A DNA stretch of 64,000 nucleotides from Alkalispirochaeta americana (GCF_900156105.1 NZ_FTMS01000010.1:1-64000); one strand, 5' to 3'; positions 29,043 through 38,196 are shown, counted from the first letter of the stretch. Notes: generated from the sequence alone by a model not told the origin. Numbers and translations are program-made.

Positions 29043-31146
29043 ATCAGCCTTCAGCCGGTATCTGCTCAGCCTTGAGGATGAGTCATTCTTCGCCCTGATC
29101 AGAAACTATCTGGGTCCCGTGCGGACGCCCTATAACAAACATGACCTCATAGCAAAACTCGTGGAGTTCCTCTCCCGCGAAGAGACCCGGCGTGCGATCA
29201 GGGCACGGATCGACGGAGATGACGAGATCCTCCTGGCAGCCACAGCCCTGCTGGGCCAGCCCGGGGAGGATCAACTCTATCACTTCCTGGAGGACCAGCT
29301 TGATTACGGCCGCTTCCGGTGGCTGCTCCTGAACCACCGGGACCGCCTCCTTTTGATCGACGGCTTCCAGGCGGGAACGGTACAGATCAACCCTCTTCTG
29401 GCGCAGACAACGCTCCAGGAAGCGATCGACCCGCAAAGACTTATCGAGGGGGAACCCCTGGCCCCCTCCGATGAAGCTGCTTCGGGAGAGTTTCCCTGGC
29501 TCTCGGCGGCCTTTGCAACAGCTCTCTACGCCTTCCTGAGGGAAGATCCCGATCTCTATACCCAGGCAGGAAAGCTGCGAAAGCGGTCCATCGCCCGTCT
29601 GAACGATCGCTTTGGCACACTCCTGACCGGTGAGGAGGGAGAACAGCGTCTGGCGACAGCCCTGCAGGCCCTGACGACGCTGCAGCTCCTGGTGCACCGC
29701 CAGGAGGAGGGGCTCGTCCTCTTCCCCGACGCCTGGGATGAGCTGGCAGATCTCCCGGAAGAATGGATACAGGCCCTGCTTTGGGGGGCTCCGCTGACGC
29801 ATTCCGTCGAGGAAGCCTTCGATATCGCGGCGCTTCTGATTTCCTTCTCCGCAACGGTCCCCTGCAACAGAAGCTTTACACCTGTCGAGATTCTCCGGAT
29901 CTTTCGTCTCACCGGGGCCGGAAGCGGCCTGCCCCTTCCCGGCACCGGCGAAACCCCTTCCCTTCTGGCTGCAATGGGGCTGCTTCTGCCCCTGGACGCA
30001 GAGGAGCCTTCCCCCGACAACGAAACCGGCACCGGCACCGACCGTCCGGCACGGTTTCGCCTGAACCCTACAGCGGCATCGCTCCTGAAACCCCCGGAAA
30101 CCTCCCCGGGGGGCGTATCGCTCCAGGCGACAATGGAGATGAACGTCCCTCCGGGAACTCCCTTCCGGGATCGCCTGGATCTTGCCCGGATTGCGGCACT
30201 TCGACGCTTCGACGTGATGGTGGTGCTGGAATTATCCCGGGAGAGCCTTTCCTCGGCGCTTCGGGAGGACCAGATCGCCGCCCGCGAGACGATTCTGCGC
30301 ATCTGCGGAGCCTCCTTGCCCCAGAACGTCGATTTTCTGCTCCGCCGGTGGCAAGACCGCCTTCAGGCAGTGCGGCTTATCCGTGGGGTGGTTCTGGTGG
30401 TGGACCAGGAAGCAGAAGAACTTCTGGGAGCCTCGGAGCAGCTCGATCCGTTTATTCAGGAACGGCTTGCTCCGGGGGTGATGATCATCTCCCCCGATGC
30501 GGTTCCCCAGGTTGAACAGCACCTTCGAGCCCTGGGATTTCATGGCTCGGTCCGGCTGGAATCGGTATCGGCCGGGGGTGCGCCGCCACCGGAATACCGG
30601 CGTTTTCTCCAGCGGCACCGCGGCCCCGCGCTGGCGCCTCCGGTTCCCCGCCACGCCCGCCGGGATGACCTGCCCCGAACCACCGGGTCTGCTCTGCCGG
30701 ACGGGATGCAAGAGCTCCACGCGACAGAAGAATCCTTGAAGGCGACCCTGGACGCGCAAAACCTGCCCCAGGAAGCTGCCCGGGAGCTGGCTCTCCGTAT
30801 CGAGGGGAAACTGATCCTCTTTCCGGAGCAAATAAACCCCGACGTGGTCCCCCGCCACGGGATCGAGGCAAAGGGGCTGGACTATCTGGGCAAAGTCCGC
30901 CTGGTGGAGCAGGCGATTCAGGAAGGGGAACTGCTGGAAGTCATTATGCGCACCGCCGAGGGAGCCCCCCGGCGGCTCCTTCTTCGGCCCCGGGAGATCG
31001 TCCAGAGCGGAGAAGACCTGATGCTGCGGGCCCTGGAACTCCCCCAGGAGAAGCCCCTGCGAGTCAGGATTCGCCGGGCTTCCCTGGTCCGCCGTTTGAG
31101 CGGGGCGCTCCTCCGATCAAAGAAAGCTCACCCAGGCGGGCGCTAA
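28996..31146 (+). CDS. XPB-associated protein (helicase C-terminal-like domain)
   Basis: About 715 residues; the recognisable protein begins around 29041 (ESAFSRYLLSLEDESFF). It resembles the large XPB-neighbouring proteins with a Helicase_C_3-like domain, seen here in the C-terminal third: RDRLDLARIAALRRFDVMVV, VRLIRGVVLVVD and PLRVRIRRASLVRRL. The start is a puzzle: there is no in-frame ATG or GTG before the domain. TTG 28996 is the last classical option, and AGGGG precedes an ATC/ATA pair at 29017-29022. It overlaps the helicase end in the +1 frame. The last 83 bases overlap the end of convergent aroDE. Confidence 0.75.
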   Translation: MQNRGIPIISNTGQTESAFSRYLLSLEDESFFALIRNYLGPVRTPYNKHDLIAKLVEFLSREETRRAIRARIDGDDEILLAATALLGQPGEDQLYHFLEDQLDYGRFRWLLLNHRDRLLLIDGFQAGTVQINPLLAQTTLQEAIDPQRLIEGEPLAPSDEAASGEFPWLSAAFATALYAFLREDPDLYTQAGKLRKRSIARLNDRFGTLLTGEEGEQRLATALQALTTLQLLVHRQEEGLVLFPDAWDELADLPEEWIQALLWGAPLTHSVEEAFDIAALLISFSATVPCNRSFTPVEILRIFRLTGAGSGLPLPGTGETPSLLAAMGLLLPLDAEEPSPDNETGTGTDRPARFRLNPTAASLLKPPETSPGGVSLQATMEMNVPPGTPFRDRLDLARIAALRRFDVMVVLELSRESLSSALREDQIAARETILRICGASLPQNVDFLLRRWQDRLQAVRLIRGVVLVVDQEAEELLGASEQLDPFIQERLAPGVMIISPDAVPQVEQHLRALGFHGSVRLESVSAGGAPPPEYRRFLQRHRGPALAPPVPRHARRDDLPRTTGSALPDGMQELHATEESLKATLDAQNLPQEAARELALRIEGKLILFPEQINPDVVPRHGIEAKGLDYLGKVRLVEQAIQEGELLEVIMRTAEGAPRRLLLRPREIVQSGEDLMLRALELPQEKPLRVRIRRASLVRRLSGALLRSKKAHPGGR

Positions 31147-32647
31147 ACAGGCGAAACTGGGCGGCCGCCTGGCGCTGAAACATCTCCTGGCCGTTTATGA
31201 CCTTGCAACCGGCAGCCCGGGCCCGCTTGAGCAGGGGCGTTTCGGGCGGGGTATAGATGATATCGTAGACGATTTCCTCGCCCGTAAAGGTATACTGGGG
31301 GATCGGATCCAGCGGATCATCCCCCATACCGACCGAGGTGGTCTGCACCAGAATATCAAAGGGCCGTTCTGTCTGGGCCAGATCCTGCAAACCGTGGGCG
31401 TGCTCCCCGGCGATACCGCAATCCCGCACCAGCTCCTGGGCCCGGGAGCGGGTGCGGTTAAAGACGTGGACCTCCACCCCCGCAGCAAAAAGCCCGGCCG
31501 CTACGGCACGAGCCGCACCACCGGCCCCGATCACCGCCGTCCGAAGCCCCGCCAGATCACCGCGAAGTTCCTGCAGAGGTTCCAGAAACCCCGCCTCGTC
31601 GGTGTTATCGGCGTACCACCCGCCGCACTCATCACGGGTGGAACGCACCAGTGTATTGGCCGCCCCGGCCCGAAGCGCCGCCGTTCCACAGGTTCTGGCT
31701 CCCACGGCCACAGCCACGGCAAAGGAAAGGGCCGACACCTTGTGGGGCACCGTTACCGACGCACCCTCCAGGGGGATAACCTGGGCGAGCGCCGAGAAAT
31801 CCGAAAAGGAATCAAGCCGCAGAGGAAGATAGATCGCCTTGATCCCTTCCCGGGCAAAGCGCTCGTTGTGATACCGGGGAGAACGGGAATGAGCCACAGG
31901 GGCACCAAGAACAGCAAAGACAGGCCACTCGGACCTGGCCTGATCAACCCGGTAGACCTCGGCCAGCATCCGGGCGTCAACCTGACCCGGAGCAGCTACC
32001 GCGTCCGGATCATCCCCGGAAGAATCCGAGGCGTAGGTCCAGAGACTTCGCAACCGGGCCGGAAAGGCCCGCGTGAGAAATCCGTGCTCACCCATGCCAA
32101 CCCAGATCGCCCGCCTTCCGGGCATCATCTGGCGGAAGGTATCGGCCGCCCGGATCAACTCTACCAGGTCTTTTGCAGAGCGCGTGGCCACAGCCAGCTT
32201 GGCCACCTCCTTGGGGTCAGCCGCAAGACGCGCCATGAGCTGCGAGAGATCCTGCGGTGTCTCCCGGGGAACATGGTGAGACCTGATCACCGTACCACCC
32301 CGGGAACGGACCAACAGCGCGATCTGGTCCCAGAGGGGGTGGCCCCGCCGGTCCAGTTCGATATCCACATAATCCGGAGAGAGCGCCTCCTGGAGGGCCT
32401 CAAAGAGAAAGACACGCTGCGCGTCGTCTCCCTCCCAGCGCCCCAGATCACGAACCCGTCTGATGGTGAGCACAGCGGGGACCCCGGGGTTCGACGCCTC
32501 CCACCACCGGCGTATCGCGCCGGGATCGCGTTCGGAAGGCTTCAGCAAGTCCACCCGGAGCTCCACCAGAGATATCCAGGGACGGTTTGTTTCCAGCTGC
32601 CGGGTCCACGCTTCGAGCGTATCCCCCGTAAGACACAAGCAGATCAT
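31064..32647 (-). CDS. aroDE: Fused type I 3-dehydroquinate dehydratase / shikimate dehydrogenase
   Basis: 527 residues. AroD half (about 1-225): VELRVDLLK, DYVDIELDR, TVIRSHHVPRETP with the catalytic His, and Schiff-base Lys150 in EVAKLAVATRS. AroE half (about 240-500): AVLGAPVAHSRSPRYHN, GASVTVPHK with the catalytic Lys, ADNTDEAGFL, the NADP loop IGAGGAARAVAAGLF, and VFNRTRSRAQ. It performs steps 3 and 4 of the shikimate pathway, dehydroquinate to shikimate, as in plants, Chlamydia and some spirochaetes. The start lies six bases after a TAGGGT box. The C-terminal 27 codons overlap the convergent helicase-partner gene. Confidence 0.95.
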   Translation of the reverse strand: MICLCLTGDTLEAWTRQLETNRPWISLVELRVDLLKPSERDPGAIRRWWEASNPGVPAVLTIRRVRDLGRWEGDDAQRVFLFEALQEALSPDYVDIELDRRGHPLWDQIALLVRSRGGTVIRSHHVPRETPQDLSQLMARLAADPKEVAKLAVATRSAKDLVELIRAADTFRQMMPGRRAIWVGMGEHGFLTRAFPARLRSLWTYASDSSGDDPDAVAAPGQVDARMLAEVYRVDQARSEWPVFAVLGAPVAHSRSPRYHNERFAREGIKAIYLPLRLDSFSDFSALAQVIPLEGASVTVPHKVSALSFAVAVAVGARTCGTAALRAGAANTLVRSTRDECGGWYADNTDEAGFLEPLQELRGDLAGLRTAVIGAGGAARAVAAGLFAAGVEVHVFNRTRSRAQELVRDCGIAGEHAHGLQDLAQTERPFDILVQTTSVGMGDDPLDPIPQYTFTGEEIVYDIIYTPPETPLLKRARAAGCKVINGQEMFQRQAAAQFRLFSARLGELSLIGGAPRSNGGPGKPGES

Positions 32648-32653
32648 GACCTA

Positions 32654-32682
32654 ACCCTACCGGGAAAGGAGCGTTGTGGGAA
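32654..32682 (-). promoter_or_regulatory. Promoter reaching the aroDE start codon
   Basis: Reverse strand TTCCCA (32682-32677), 17 bases, TAGGGT (32659-32654), then six bases to ATG 32647. The six bases TAGGTC are a poor ribosome site at this spacing. Confidence 0.45.
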
Positions 32683-32694
32683 GTATTCTTCCAC

Positions 32695-32729
32695 TCCCCT
32701 CTGGTTTACCGAGTCCCCTCTGGTTTACC
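32695..32729 (+). repeat. Direct repeat in the aroDE-rex control region
   Basis: tcccctctggtttacc at 32695-32710 and 32714-32729, identical, 19 bases apart start to start (about two helical turns). The spacing suits a dimeric or tandem regulator on one face of the DNA. The 223-base divergent gap also has an AT-rich stretch (32760-32870) with possible -10 boxes such as CATAAT at 32812. Confidence 0.85.
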
Positions 32730-32870
32730 AAAGCGATACACCTTTGAGCGATGAACAATAGTTATAGTGCAAAAAAACAATTGTTCTTGCAATAATCTGA
32801 AAGGTTGGTTGCATAATATGAGAAGCCGGAATAGTATTGTGATAGTTTATGTGATTGAAGGCGCAATTTA

Positions 32871-33575
32871 ATGGAAACTAAGATAAATAGAGGGATCGTC
32901 CTTCGCCTGGCAAAGTACCTGAGGGTGTTGCACAAGCTGAAGGGCATGGGGTTTGTAAAGGTTTTCTCCAATAACCTGGGCGATGCTATCGGGGTTACCC
33001 CGGCGGTGGTGCGCAAGGATTTCTCGATCATCGGAATTCCGGGCAACAAGCGCGGAGGCTACAACATCGATGTCATCATCGAAGAGATCGAGCGGATGCT
33101 GGGCAAGGAAGAGCGCCAGCCCATCGTTGTCCTGGGGTGCGGAAAGATCGGCAACGCCCTGATGCACTACACCGAGTTCGAACGGGACGGGATCGAGGTT
33201 GTGGCAGGGTTCGAAATAAACCCTGATCTGATCAATCCCAACGCTCATATTCCCATTTATCCGATCGCAAAACTTCCCGAGGTCGCCGTCAGAGAAGCGG
33301 TAAAGGTCGCTGTTATTGCTGTCCCCGATGTGGCTGCCACGGAGGTTTTCGAACTGGTAACGGCATCGGGAATTCCGGGAGTCCTCAACTTCACCTCGGT
33401 GGATCTCAAGTGCGGACGTTGCGATTTTGACGAGTGCGCCATCCGGTGCATCGTCCAGAACGTAAACATTGGCCTGGAAATAGAGAATCTCTTCTACCTG
33501 GTCCGGATGAAAGAGGCTGATATATTGGATCAAAGCCGATCCCGGACAGAAACGCTCACATCTCAAACAGGATAA
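32871..33575 (+). CDS. rex: Redox-sensing transcriptional repressor Rex
   Basis: 234 residues. N-terminal winged helix (about 8-75) with RLAKYLRVLHKLKGMG and TPAVVRKDFSIIG; NAD(H)-binding Rossmann fold from VVLGCGKIGNALMHY (about 85-100); C-terminal swapped helix NVNIGLEIENLFYLV. Rex senses the NADH/NAD+ ratio and represses fermentative and hydrogenase genes. A four-cysteine cluster, KCGRCDFDECAIRC near residue 180, is unusual and could bind metal or sense oxidation. Its stop overlaps the next start (TAATG). No full Rex operator palindrome is evident upstream; only one half-site, TTGTGA, lies at 32838. Confidence 0.93.
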   Translation: METKINRGIVLRLAKYLRVLHKLKGMGFVKVFSNNLGDAIGVTPAVVRKDFSIIGIPGNKRGGYNIDVIIEEIERMLGKEERQPIVVLGCGKIGNALMHYTEFERDGIEVVAGFEINPDLINPNAHIPIYPIAKLPEVAVREAVKVAVIAVPDVAATEVFELVTASGIPGVLNFTSVDLKCGRCDFDECAIRCIVQNVNIGLEIENLFYLVRMKEADILDQSRSRTETLTSQTG

Positions 33576-33910
33576 TGCCCATGACTCTTGCAGAATGCCT
33601 TGAACACGTACACGGAACCTGGATCATCCCCGGAGACGAGACGGAAGAGTTCTTCGATGTAGTCGTCTCGGACCTTATGAGCGACGTTCTGGTGACGGAA
33701 CTGGAGGACTTCCTCCTGGTCACCTCCCTTACGTCGGAACAGGTCCTGCGGACGGCCGACATTGTCGATGCCCGGGCGATCCTGATAACCAACGGGAAGC
33801 AACCCCAGGAGCGGATGAGAAGCCTGGCACAGCACCAGACCATGCCGATCATGGTAACGCCCCTGACAACCTTCGATACCTGTCGCGCCCTGGCGGAGTG
33901 CAAGAAATAA
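33575..33910 (+). CDS. DRTGG-domain protein (first copy)
   Basis: 111 residues, or 109 if ATG 33581 is used. A small alpha/beta protein with VVSDLMSDVLVTELEDFLLV and VDARAILITNGKQPQERM, the DRTGG fold known from HPr kinase N-termini. Such stand-alone DRTGG proteins accompany anti-sigma-like ATPases and PHP proteins in [FeFe]-hydrogenase clusters. Coupled to rex by a TAATG overlap. Probably a ligand-binding regulatory subunit; ligand unknown. Confidence 0.78.
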   Translation: MPMTLAECLEHVHGTWIIPGDETEEFFDVVVSDLMSDVLVTELEDFLLVTSLTSEQVLRTADIVDARAILITNGKQPQERMRSLAQHQTMPIMVTPLTTFDTCRALAECKK

Positions 33911-33937
33911 CGACAGAATGAACGAGGGGGTCAAGCC

Positions 33938-34873
33938 ATGAACAGCGGCGGCACATCCATTCCTATCGATACCGATCAGGGGTCACCTATCATTCTGGAG
34001 CTCATCTACCGGCTCAAGATCCGGGATGTCATGACAGAGCCCACCTTTATCTGCACCACCGACGAGACCATGCGGGACGCCCAGCGGATCATGAAGAGCA
34101 ACAGTATCAGCGGCGTTCCCGTGATGGAGGGCCGCCGGCTCGTGGGAATCGTCAGCGTTGACGATGTGATCACGGCCCTGGAAAAGGGGTATATCGACGA
34201 TCCCGTTCAAAATCACATGACCCGTCAGGTGATTGTCCTGGAAGACGACATGCCCCTGAGTTTCGGGATATCCTGGCTCGATAAATACCGCTTTGGCCGC
34301 CTGCCGGTGCTGAACGCACGAAAAGAACTCGTGGGAATTGTGACCAGCCGCGACGTGATCGTCGCTCTGCTACTGGAGATCAACAAGGAAATCGAGCGTT
34401 TCGAAAAAAACACCAAGCAGAAAGAGTCATCGGGCGAGGGGTTCCGCCTGGAATACACCACCCGCCCCTTCGATTTCGAGATGGCGGGACGCCTCTCGAC
34501 AGAGACAAAGCAGCAGCTCAAATCGCGGGATCTTCCGCCCAAGCTCATCCGCCGGGTTGCGATCGCTACCTACGAGCTCGAGATGAATCAAGTGGTCCAC
34601 TCCGAAGGCGGAACCGTACAGGTCTCCTACGAAGCAAAACGACACCGCGTGACCATACGCGCCCGGGACCACGGCCCGGGGATCGAGGACGTGGAATCGG
34701 CCCTGGAAGAGGGGGTTTCCACGGCCAACGAATGGGTCCGCTCCCTGGGATTCGGCGCGGGCATGGGCCTGCCCAACACCCGCCGGGTCGCCGATGAGTT
34801 CTCCATCTCCTCGTCTCCGGCCGGAACGAACGTTGACGTGGTTATCTATACATCGCAGGAGGGAAAATCATGA
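33938..34873 (+). CDS. CBS-pair protein with anti-sigma-type ATPase domain
   Basis: 311 residues. Two CBS repeats (about 25-145) with LKIRDVMTEPTFICTTDETM, SGVPVMEGRRLVGIVS and FGRLPVLNARKELVGIVTS. Then a GHKL/HATPase_c domain (about 165-305) with IATYELEMNQVVHS (N box), ARDHGPGIED (G1) and GFGAGMGLPNTRRVAD (G2), the RsbW/SpoIIAB style. It is likely a serine kinase or anti-regulator gated by adenine nucleotides through CBS. A GAGGGGG ribosome site is present. Overlaps the second DRTGG gene by ATGA. Confidence 0.85.
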   Translation: MNSGGTSIPIDTDQGSPIILELIYRLKIRDVMTEPTFICTTDETMRDAQRIMKSNSISGVPVMEGRRLVGIVSVDDVITALEKGYIDDPVQNHMTRQVIVLEDDMPLSFGISWLDKYRFGRLPVLNARKELVGIVTSRDVIVALLLEINKEIERFEKNTKQKESSGEGFRLEYTTRPFDFEMAGRLSTETKQQLKSRDLPPKLIRRVAIATYELEMNQVVHSEGGTVQVSYEAKRHRVTIRARDHGPGIEDVESALEEGVSTANEWVRSLGFGAGMGLPNTRRVADEFSISSSPAGTNVDVVIYTSQEGKS

Positions 34874-35202
34874 ATGTTTCTGAATTAGCTGGAGCACTGG
34901 ATCTCAGACTGGTCCAGGAAACCTACGAAGACGGACCGGTTCAGGGGGCCTATACTTCGGACCTTCTTAGCGATGTCATGGCCAACGCCAACAGCGCCGA
35001 TGCCCTGATCACGATCCAGGCACACAAGAACACCATCGCCGTGGCAACTTTGGTAGGGGCATCGGCGATCATTATTTGCAACAACCGCCCCGTTCCCCAG
35101 GACATGCTCGACGCTGCCGAATCCGAGGGAATCGCGATCTTTGTGAGCGACGAGGACCAGTTCACGCTCTCGGGACGGCTCTACACCATTCTGAAAGGAT
35201 AA
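34870..35202 (+). CDS. DRTGG-domain protein (second copy)
   Basis: 110 residues: ALDLRLVQETYEDGPVQGAY, YTSDLLSDVMANANSADALI, TLVGASAIIICNNRPVPQDM. Closely follows the stand-alone DRTGG pattern and is the partner of the copy at 33575. ATG overlaps the previous TGA (ATGA). The order rex-DRTGG-CBS/ATPase-DRTGG-PHP is that of hydrogenase-linked regulatory operons. Confidence 0.82.
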   Translation: MNVSELAGALDLRLVQETYEDGPVQGAYTSDLLSDVMANANSADALITIQAHKNTIAVATLVGASAIIICNNRPVPQDMLDAAESEGIAIFVSDEDQFTLSGRLYTILKG

Positions 35203-35211
35203 GAGCGGGCC

Positions 35212-35940
35212 GTGACGGTTGTTGCCGACCTTCACAACCACTCCTGTCTCAGCCCCTGCGGGGATCTGGAGAACAGCCCCGGTGCGCTCTGCCGCCGGGC
35301 GGCAGAGCTGGGGATCTCCATGTTGGGCCTCACGGACCACAACAGTGCCCGGAACTGTCCCGCCTTTGAGGAGACCTGCCGCCGCGAGGGGATAATTCCT
35401 GTTTTTGGCACCGAGACCACCACCCGCGAGGAGGTCCATATCCTCTCGCTCTTCGGATCGGTCCGGGAAGCCCTCGACTGGGGCGACTGGGTCTACGAAC
35501 GGTTGCCGGACTTCCGTCACGACCCGGAAAAGTTCGGCGATCAGGCCGTGGTCGATGCCGACGAAAACATTCTCGATTTCGAGGAACGCTACCTGATTCC
35601 TGCGATCGACGCTTCGATCGAGGAGATCGCCGAAGAGACCCTTCGCCGGGGAGGGCTCATTATCCCCGCTCACATCGACAGAACCGCCACGAGCATTGCC
35701 TCCCAGCTGGGGTTTCTTCCGGACCAGCGCTTCAGCGCCCTCGAGGTGACGCGCCTTCCCCCACCCTTTGACACCCGGGGCCATACCCTGATCTGCGATT
35801 CTGACGCTCATTTTCTGGATGACATGGGAAAACGGACCTTCAGCTTCGAGATATCCCCCGGGGACAGCTCCCCCTTCGCAGCCCTGGCCAGAGTGCTTCG
35901 GGAGGGAGCAGTGCGGCTTTCCATACCCGCCCCGGCCTGA
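35212..35940 (+). CDS. PHP-domain metal-dependent phosphoesterase
   Basis: 242 residues, GTG start. Metal-binding motifs are DLHNHSCLSPCG (His-x-His), GLTDHNS, GIIPVFGTETTTREEVHIL, IIPAHIDR and CDSDAHFLDD, so all PHP ligands appear present. PHP proteins hydrolyse phosphoesters such as histidinol phosphate, nucleotides or pAp. Here the gene closes the rex operon. In other anaerobes the next genes encode hydrogenase subunits; here the next gene is convergent ablB, and the operon stops. Confidence 0.85.
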   Translation: MTVVADLHNHSCLSPCGDLENSPGALCRRAAELGISMLGLTDHNSARNCPAFEETCRREGIIPVFGTETTTREEVHILSLFGSVREALDWGDWVYERLPDFRHDPEKFGDQAVVDADENILDFEERYLIPAIDASIEEIAEETLRRGGLIIPAHIDRTATSIASQLGFLPDQRFSALEVTRLPPPFDTRGHTLICDSDAHFLDDMGKRTFSFEISPGDSSPFAALARVLREGAVRLSIPAPA

Positions 35941-35965: not shown

Positions 35966-36877
35966 CTAGAGGCTTCCTGGGGGGGGCTTCCCGGCTGGTT
36001 TGTACCAGACGTTCATGCTCTCCAGGTCCCCGCCAATCTGGGTGTTCCTGATGAGAGTCCCCCCGTAACGATACCTGGCCCTGAAAAAAGTACGGTTCAT
36101 GGCTGGCTGGGAGAGCCGGGCAATGGTGTAAAAACAGCGGTACTCCTGCCGGAGCAGGGCTTCTTCCATGGCAGACAGCAGGATCCCCGCCAGACCCGCG
36201 CCCCGAAAGGCAGGGTCCACGGCAAAATCGGTCATCTCCACGCTTTTTGGAACCGGGTGCTTCTCGGCTGAGGCCGCAGCAGCGATGGGGTGAGCAAAGC
36301 CCTCGGGAGCCGGGATCAGGTAGTAGTCCACATCGCTTCCCATGGTTTTGGCCAGATACTCCGGCGAGCCTATGGGAAAGGGATAACTTGCGAAGGTTCG
36401 CTCATAGAGCCCCGCCAGGGCGGGAATATCCCCGGGGAGGGCCCGCCGTACCTGCCAGGCAGTTCCTGGCGCCCCCCTTCGGGAAGGTTCGGACCCCTGG
36501 GGAGCTCCAGGCTGCTCCCCGATTGACCAGGCAGCGCAGGCTTCAAGGAGCTCGCGATCCTCCCGGGAAAGAATCTCCCGGGAGGGCGAAAAATACCGCA
36601 CCAGAATTATCGCCGCCTCTTCTCCCTGAAAATATCCCGGGATCATCGCTTCCAGACGGTACCCTCGGGCGAGAAAGAAGGGGGCCTCCCCCTGGGGAAG
36701 CAGGAAAAAGTGCTTTCCGTAGTTTTGCTGTTCCTGGAGCTCCTGAATTCGTTGCCAGAGCCTGTCCCGATCGGCACGGTGATATTCCATGAGGTAGATA
36801 CGGTCGCTCCCCCGTCCGTGATGGAGGAGGGACCGGCCCACCCGTTCCTGGCGGTCTTGTTCCTGGCAATCCATCAT
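35966..36877 (-). CDS. ablB: Beta-lysine N6-acetyltransferase
   Basis: 303 residues. C-terminal GNAT domain (about 150-290) with [20 protein letters not shown] (acetyl-CoA loop) and [21 protein letters not shown], characteristic of AblB. It acetylates beta-lysine to N-epsilon-acetyl-beta-lysine, a compatible solute for salt stress. It overlaps ablA by ATGA. A linker (about 120-140) is rich in Gly/Pro/Arg. The family plus the ablA neighbour makes the call strong. Confidence 0.9.
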
Positions 36878-38196
36878 TCAGCAATCTCATCCTGACGACG
36901 GCAGATGCGCGTGGTGTTCTCGGGAACCAGGGTATAAACATCGTCCTCGTCGGAAAGCAACTGGGTGATTCCCGTGGCGTTATTCTCCCGGGCTTCGTCC
37001 AGCTTGAGCTGGAGGTGACACTCATCGCAGTCGCGGTTGCAGTAGGTGTGAGGATATTCCGAGGGCTCCCGGTAGGTGGTGATCACTCCCTCGAAATTAC
37101 GCAGAACCACCTTGGAAGGAGAGTAGGAGACCAGATAGTTTGGCGCCACCGGTATCTTTCCTCCTCCGCCGGGGGCATCCACCACATAGGTGGGCACAGC
37201 CAGCCCGCTGGTGTGACCCCTCAGGCTTTCCATGATCTCGATTCCCTTGCTCACGGGCGTGCGGAAATGGGTGAGGCCTTCGGAGAGGTCACACTGGTAC
37301 AGATAATAGGGTCTCACACGATTCTGCAGCATCTTTTGAACCAGGGCTTTCTGTATTCTGGGACAGTCGTTGACATCCCGCAGGAGAACCGTCTGGTTAC
37401 CCAGAGGTATACCCCCATCGGCCAGGCGCGTGAGGGCTGCCCGGGATGAACCGGTCACCTCCCGAGGGTGGTTGAAATGGGTGTTTACGTAGAGGGGGTG
37501 GTAACGCTTCAGCATATCCACCAGCTCATCGGTGATCCGATAGGGCAGGACCACGGGCATTCGCGTGCCGATTCGTATAATCTCGATGTGGTCGATCTCC
37601 CGAATCTGGCTCAGTATCCACTCCAGGTATGAATCGGAGAGCATCAGCGGGTCTCCCCCCGAAAGAAGAACATCCCGAATCTCCCGATGCTCGCGGAGAT
37701 ACTCGATCCCCTGGGAGAGAATTTCCCTGGTGGGGATGGAATCGCGGTCTCCCACTTTTCGCTTTCGGGTGCAATGGCGGCAGTACATGGAACAGCTGTT
37801 ACTGATGTGAAAAAGAACCCTGTCGGGGTAGCGATGGGTGATGGCCGGTATGGGACTGTCCGTGTCCTCCGAGAGGGGGTCGGCCATCTCGTAATCCTGG
37901 CGGAGGAGTTCCCGCGAATCGGGAAAGGCCTGTTTCATGACGGGATCGTTTTGCCAGTCCGCCACGTCTATCAGAGAGAGGTAATAGGGCGTAATGGAGA
38001 GCGGGAAAGTCTCGATCGTCTCCTGGAGAGCCTCCCTCTCCTTTGGAGAAAAGGTTATGCCCGAGACCGTCTCGAAGGAATCAAGGTCGGTAATGGAATG
38101 CTTGATATGCCAGCGCCAGTTTGACCAGTTTCCTCCGGTGAAATCCTGCTGGAGTTTTCCTGCGATCTCTCGTTGCTTGCTGGTGAAATGCTTCAT
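36874..38196 (-). CDS. ablA: Lysine 2,3-aminomutase (KamA/AblA)
   Basis: 440 residues. Radical SAM cysteines Cys135, Cys139 and Cys142 in [14 protein letters not shown]. The PLP lysine lies in [17 protein letters not shown], and a C-terminal cysteine cluster is present in [12 protein letters not shown]. It converts L-lysine to beta-lysine using SAM, a [4Fe-4S] cluster and PLP. With ablB this is the osmolyte pathway rather than lysine fermentation, since no other fermentation genes are near. No ribosome site precedes the ATG; a promoter ends eight bases upstream. Confidence 0.93.

Follow-up and report, generated by a model that had tools for sequence, protein, structure and literature searches.

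A detached rex–DRTGG–CBS/HATPase–DRTGG–PHP cassette in Alkalispirochaeta americana as a candidate trans-acting control unit for HydB/HydC-diaphorase oxidoreductases

A five-gene cassette between aroDE and ablB

The window, the whole stretch of 64,000 nucleotides from Alkalispirochaeta americana (GCF_900156105.1 NZ_FTMS01000010.1:1-64000) that was analysed, carries at 32871-35940 on its plus strand five open reading frames in the order rex, DRTGG, CBS/HATPase, DRTGG and PHP, with 0-27 bases between neighbours. This order, proposed in an earlier note on the same DNA, is borne out by the reading frames together with Pfam and NCBIfam matches, as is the end of the cassette at a convergent gene, since ablB/ablA (35966-38196) close it downstream. 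The features are as follows.

31064..32647, minus strand: aroDE, upstream flank outside the system
32648..32870: gap between aroDE and rex, 223 bp
32809..32837, plus strand: rex promoter, TTGCAT and TAGTAT with a 17 bp spacer; spacing the same in five related loci, read by eye
32849..32866, plus strand: candidate Rex auto-operator ATGTGATTGAAGGCGCAA, 4 bp before the ATG; 9/14 to the consensus, p 0.2 when taken alone
32871..33575, plus strand: rex, NADH-responsive repressor by family; NF003996, 205 bits against a cut-off of 138
33575..33910, plus strand: DRTGG protein 1; PF07085 at 6.7e-8, above the Pfam cut-off
33938..34873, plus strand: CBS/HATPase, two CBS domains fused to an RsbW/SpoIIAB-like HATPase (HATPase_c_2); PF00571 at 1.1e-21, PF13581 at 1.2e-10
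34870..35202, plus strand: DRTGG protein 2; PF07085 at 1.3e-4 and HPrK N-terminal domain at 1.3e-4, both slightly below the Pfam cut-off; position conserved
35212..35940, plus strand: PHP-family metallo-phosphoesterase; PF02811 at 5e-11
35966..36877, minus strand: ablB, convergent flank outside the system; TIGR03827

No hydABC genes were found next to the cassette in the window, where aroDE adjoins rex. The nearest named-contig genome is that of Alkalispirochaeta alkalica (96% identity), and the assembly of A. alkalica DSM 8900 (L020), which is independent, has identical cassette flanks and an empty aroDE-rex gap. An assembly artefact is therefore excluded as the reason for the missing hydrogenase, and an assembly break as the cause of the detachment is ruled out; hydrogenase genes adjacent to the cassette in the true assembly, which the earlier note had named as evidence against its own proposal, are missing from that independent assembly too.

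Of 48 homologous loci in the Spirochaetota, 45 preserve the CBS/HATPase-DRTGG(2)-PHP order, so the arrangement is not due to chance. DRTGG1 adjoins this core in 21 of the 48 cassette loci and Rex in only 10; the constant part of the cassette is the core without Rex. In the window all five frames are open with their motifs intact (95-98% identity to A. alkalica), the cassette is single-copy, with one full-length CBS-HATPase in the genome, and the CBS-HATPase is kept in 8/8 family members searched. The cassette is real and conserved and apparently undescribed in the searchable literature; no description of it together with hydrogenase was found in the literature searched.

Domains and motifs of the cassette proteins

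The ATP-binding N and G boxes of the CBS-HATPase are conserved in alignment (TYELEMNQ, DHGPG, GFGAGMGLP), and the metal-ligand motifs of the PHP protein (DLHNH, TDH, E, H, PAH, SDAH) are intact and invariant in five rows. The HATPase_c_2 type with its N and G boxes is shared with RsbW and SpoIIAB, the anti-sigma and partner-switching kinases, and a SpoIIE-type phosphatase occurs in an unlinked cluster on contig C18; in contrast to those systems, none of the five cassette genes is an anti-sigma-antagonist or sigma gene, and kinase activity is putative. DRTGG protein 1 is weakly similar (E 0.2) to the DRTGG part of the CBS-pyrophosphatase structures 3l2b and 3l31. The regulatory region of CBS-pyrophosphatase (CBS-DRTGG-CBS) binds AMP/ADP and Ap4A. 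Because the cassette contains the same two domain types, with weak sequence matches to both, its CBS and DRTGG proteins may likewise bind adenylates, although here the domains are on separate proteins, CBS is fused to a HATPase and there is no pyrophosphatase.

The window Rex consists of an N-terminal winged helix (PF06971) and a Rossmann domain (PF02629), lies above the curated NF003996 cut-off and matches PDB Rex chains at E 1e-27; by family, it would be expected to sense NADH. Residues 181-193 form a loop, ...LKCGRCDFDECAIRC..., holding four cysteines (C181, C184, C189, C193; C-x2-C-x4-C-x3-C), which are invariant in five aligned rows and in whose place both solved Rex chains that were aligned have a short turn. 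Rex proteins of several families have four cysteines with varying spacing, others three, two, one or none, and the loop looks like a metal or Fe-S site that was gained or lost repeatedly. The AlphaFold model of Rex had a mean pLDDT of 61.5, falling below 50 from residue 176 on, and left the loop without a usable prediction. As a marker of hydrogenase the loop was rejected, being kept in the hydrogenase-free genomes G395 and G396, lost in the formate dehydrogenase-linked G414 and G417, and also missing in the hydrogenase-linked Rex of loci L032, L034, L051 and L064. A second, divergent Rex-like gene on contig C16 of the window genome (L019 6150-8003; 29% identity) has no Cys loop and lies inside a long open frame.

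Unlinked hydrogenases and a lost neighbour operon

The window genome (G000; 3.3 Mb, 95.6% complete) contains five genes with an [FeFe]-hydrogenase domain (Fe_hyd_lg_C), including two HydABC sets, all on other contigs (C17, C18 and C4). The earlier description of an operon without a hydrogenase thus fails at the level of the genome, and the search for HydA, HydB and HydC that went with it located both sets on C17, where they face each other. One, hydC-hydB-hydA, occupies about 6.8-12.1 kb; the other spans 14.1-18.6 kb and reads hydC2-(unnamed small gene)-hydB2-hydA2, with no Pfam match for its small gene. In the HydABC set convergent with hydABC2, HydB is fused to a GltD-like pyridine-nucleotide oxidoreductase (L016 7227-10364, C17), and similar convergent HydABC pairings were seen in G404 and G334.

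An operon hydC-HATPase-(small gene)-hydB-hydA runs divergently from the cassette at loci L023 and L024, and in L024, G397 and G398 the hyd operon sits between aroDE and rex. Across a comparison of 60 further loci, divergent hydC-HATPase-hydB-hydA genes stood beside rex at 12, and also in G393, G397 and G407; hydC next to rex always went with this divergent plan, and at the other loci the operon was downstream or not in view. Within the window's own family the linked hyd operon is retained in G393, G397 and G398, the HATPase alone remains between aroDE and rex in G394, and nothing is retained there in G000, G334, G395 and G396. Judged from these gene orders, the window lineage has evidently lost a divergent partner operon from the aroDE-rex gap.

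In a tree of the CBS-HATPase the eight family members fall together (100/99) with the detached ones nested among them (97/86), as would follow from vertical inheritance of the cassette in the family. HydB2 from C17, in comparison, groups with G130, G394, G402 and G404 (the last two of another family) and not with the family's resident HydB; forcing it into the resident group costs 158 log units (AU p 8e-8). Taken together, the two trees therefore indicate a vertically inherited controller and a hydrogenase of another lineage. That the operon simply moved is ruled out by the position of HydB2 outside the resident family copies. In a quick tree, the HATPases of formate dehydrogenase operons are joined by the C18 HATPase and by the relic copy of G394 (SH-aLRT 96); this hints, without proving it, that the aroDE-rex site formerly held a formate dehydrogenase operon.

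Co-inheritance without linkage

The survey covered 393 Spirochaetota genomes, 74 of which were called as carrying the cassette by a strong CBS-HATPase match. The small HATPase of the hydrogenase operon, here termed the companion HATPase, is present in 72/74 cassette genomes and in 11/319 others (Fisher p 4e-64, with genomes taken as units and ancestry only partly corrected). When the data were shuffled within families, among the hydrogenase-positive genomes of the class, the observed agreement between cassette and HATPase was never reached (0/10000). Cassette and companion HATPase lie within 20 kb of each other in only 22 of the 72 genomes, farther apart on one contig, by up to 2.6 Mb, in 12, and on different contigs in 38, some of which may reflect assembly breaks. 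Detachment is common and co-inheritance near-total, and co-inheritance without linkage in 50 of the 72 genomes argues that the connection of cassette and hydrogenase is functional rather than accidental. The claim that such cassettes usually precede hydrogenase genes was correct as to the type of enzyme and as to adjacency in relatives, but the two mostly lie apart and, when adjacent, are usually divergent. The proposed comparison with hydrogenase presence across spirochaetes gave an [FeFe]-hydrogenase in 74/74 cassette genomes of the survey, yet five cassette-bearing members of the order gave no PF02906 hit.

Formate dehydrogenase as an alternative partner

These five (G395, G396, G400, G414 and G417; two in the window's genus) come from an order sample of 46 genomes, with the cassette in 29 and PF02906 in 35, and the absence of a PF02906 match is to be read with their completeness of 94, 97, 76, 92 and 99%, respectively, and contamination of up to 8%. 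In G396, G400 and G417, and also in G405, hydC and hydB are followed by a formate dehydrogenase-type subunit, with a companion HATPase; the 2Fe-2S/4Fe-4S/molybdopterin assignment of this subunit is by Pfam in G417 and by homology in the other three. The formate dehydrogenase catalytic subunit is strongly matched in G395, G396, G414 and G417 and, by the same search, absent from the window genome. The cassette of G417 faces fdhD and a hydC/hydB formate dehydrogenase operon with HATPase, and rex of G402 faces fdhD, the fdhD of G417 having been assigned by eye through its similarity to the G402 gene, which Pfam confirms. Because formate dehydrogenase on the same hydB/hydC diaphorase appears as the partner in some genomes, the cassette is, on gene content, not hydrogenase-specific.

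The flavin subunit HydB has been found combined with formate dehydrogenase among the reviewed relatives of electron-bifurcating HydABC (PMC6288185). The spirochaete enzymes share the HydA, HydB and HydC subunit domains with that group, their bifurcation being putative, whereas the cassette is a regulator and not an enzyme. Formate dehydrogenase operons of Spirochaetales that include a companion HATPase together with hydC and hydB of the hydrogenase type were seen at L164 (5542-12749), L160, L163 and L166, with fdhD or moeA nearby at L164 and L160; a possible identity for them is an NAD-linked or bifurcating formate dehydrogenase.

Candidate Rex sites

Work on Caldicellulosiruptor bescii has established a consensus for Rex sites and shown that Rex regulates both its own gene and the hyd operon (PMC6391272). 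The system described here would resemble that one in an autoregulated, NADH-sensing Rex and in TTGTGAANNNNTTCACAA-like sites upstream of rex and hyd genes. It differs in the cassette of nucleotide sensors that Rex heads, in the lack of linkage to the hyd genes and in a Rex of the subgroup with an inserted four-Cys loop. The position of the candidate site ATGTGATTGAAGGCGCAA, which is itself imperfect, is shared by most relatives, several of which have near-consensus copies, and an [A/T]TGTGA half-site recurs 2-5 bp before the rex ATG in most loci. Near-consensus Rex-like sites lie between hydC and rex in G374 (14/14), G361 and G349 (12/14 each) and before rex in the formate dehydrogenase-linked G417 (12/14) and G414 (11/14); the Rex-like site TTGTGAATGAATTCACAA occurs in G374 and others. 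The genome search for Rex sites advocated in the earlier note points to an imperfect Rex-like site before hydC2 on C17, TTGTGCTTGATGTAACAA (p about 0.01-0.03), which is the same in G334, a genome too close for a strong footprint; the genome-wide scan was too noisy, as the motif gave 58 matches and its reversed control still 41. The Rex-like sites at rex and hydC2 are suggestive, not proof.

A putative control unit for diaphorase complexes

On balance the cassette is probably a unit that controls, in trans, NADH-linked flavin oxidoreductases of the HydB/HydC-diaphorase type. In this lineage its neighbour operon was lost, and the unlinked C17 HydABC, which is of a different lineage, would serve instead. 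Across the comparison its targets would mostly be [FeFe]-hydrogenase HydABC and sometimes formate dehydrogenase, all sharing the HydB/HydC diaphorase and the small companion HATPase, and we infer that the C17 HydABC is the present target. At low NADH/NAD+, Rex would repress its own operon and probably hydC2, and high NADH would lift this repression. The CBS and DRTGG proteins may read adenine nucleotides and thereby govern ATP binding by the CBS-HATPase; the latter would act with the companion HATPase on the diaphorase complex, directly or, as a guess, by Ser/Thr phosphorylation, and the PHP protein would remove the phosphate or degrade a signal nucleotide. Our preferred guess, if a weakly supported one, is that a kinase and a phosphatase work as a pair on the diaphorase or the companion HATPase. 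Control in trans has against it that Rex is adjacent in only 10/48 loci, that a second Rex-like gene exists on C16 and that the hydC2 site is imperfect. Of the earlier proposal of a detached module controlling hydrogenase genes elsewhere, the detachment is supported by the unlinked HydABC, the divergent operons of relatives and the co-inheritance, and its restriction to hydrogenase gives way to the formate dehydrogenase partners. A wider version, in which a portable system with a Rex sensing NADH (and perhaps oxygen or iron) by way of a metal- or Fe-S-binding Cys loop as an extra, and a CBS/DRTGG/HATPase/PHP relay sensing adenylates, controls in trans any NADH-linked HydBC-type complex, be it a hydrogenase or a formate dehydrogenase, so that the enzyme could be exchanged under a constant controller, is put forward only tentatively.

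The main rival to the kinase/phosphatase guess is an assembly or protection role, in which the four core genes help to build, mend or protect the HydBC flavin/Fe-S complex and have no signalling function. A constant core with a metal-dependent PHP protein and ATP-binding proteins, following HydBC whatever the catalytic subunit, would suit such a role, but CBS and DRTGG are typical nucleotide-sensing domains and the head gene in some loci is a redox repressor, and we regard it as rather doubtful. The earlier note had also considered a stand-alone NADH/energy-charge switch with its own, unrelated targets, as might be suggested by a cassette that is unlinked more often than linked and is kept in the five genomes lacking a PF02906 match. 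Four of these five, however, are those with the strong formate dehydrogenase match, and in the fifth, G400, the formate dehydrogenase-type subunit is clustered with hydC, hydB and a HATPase. Since the partner HATPase is hardly ever missing, a switch that stands entirely alone is unlikely. That the cassette is a fossil, decaying after loss of the hydrogenase, is very improbable: the neighbour operon is gone and G394 retains the HATPase only, but the open frames, the intact motifs, the identity to A. alkalica and the retention of the CBS-HATPase throughout the family all speak against decay.

Regulator genes of unknown role are frequent beside hydrogenase operons and are ignored. The natural replacements described above, with a resident hydrogenase lost, a foreign one unlinked or formate dehydrogenase in its stead, offer a ready experiment on the cassette's targets. 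If control in trans is correct, it would explain how fermenting spirochaetes adjust their disposal of NADH to redox and energy state, and would offer a regulator movable between electron-disposal enzymes.

Other hydrogenase-like genes of the window genome

The C18 cluster (L017 7100-12963) encodes an Fe-hydrogenase-PAS protein, a SpoIIE phosphatase, a second hydrogenase-like protein, a 197-aa companion HATPase and a Fur-like gene product (Fur by eye), and is sensory. On C4 (L018 5258-8876) a hydrogenase-like domain fused to a HATPase is followed by CheX and a response regulator; this arrangement resembles a sensory hydrogenase connected to a phosphorelay of the chemotaxis type.
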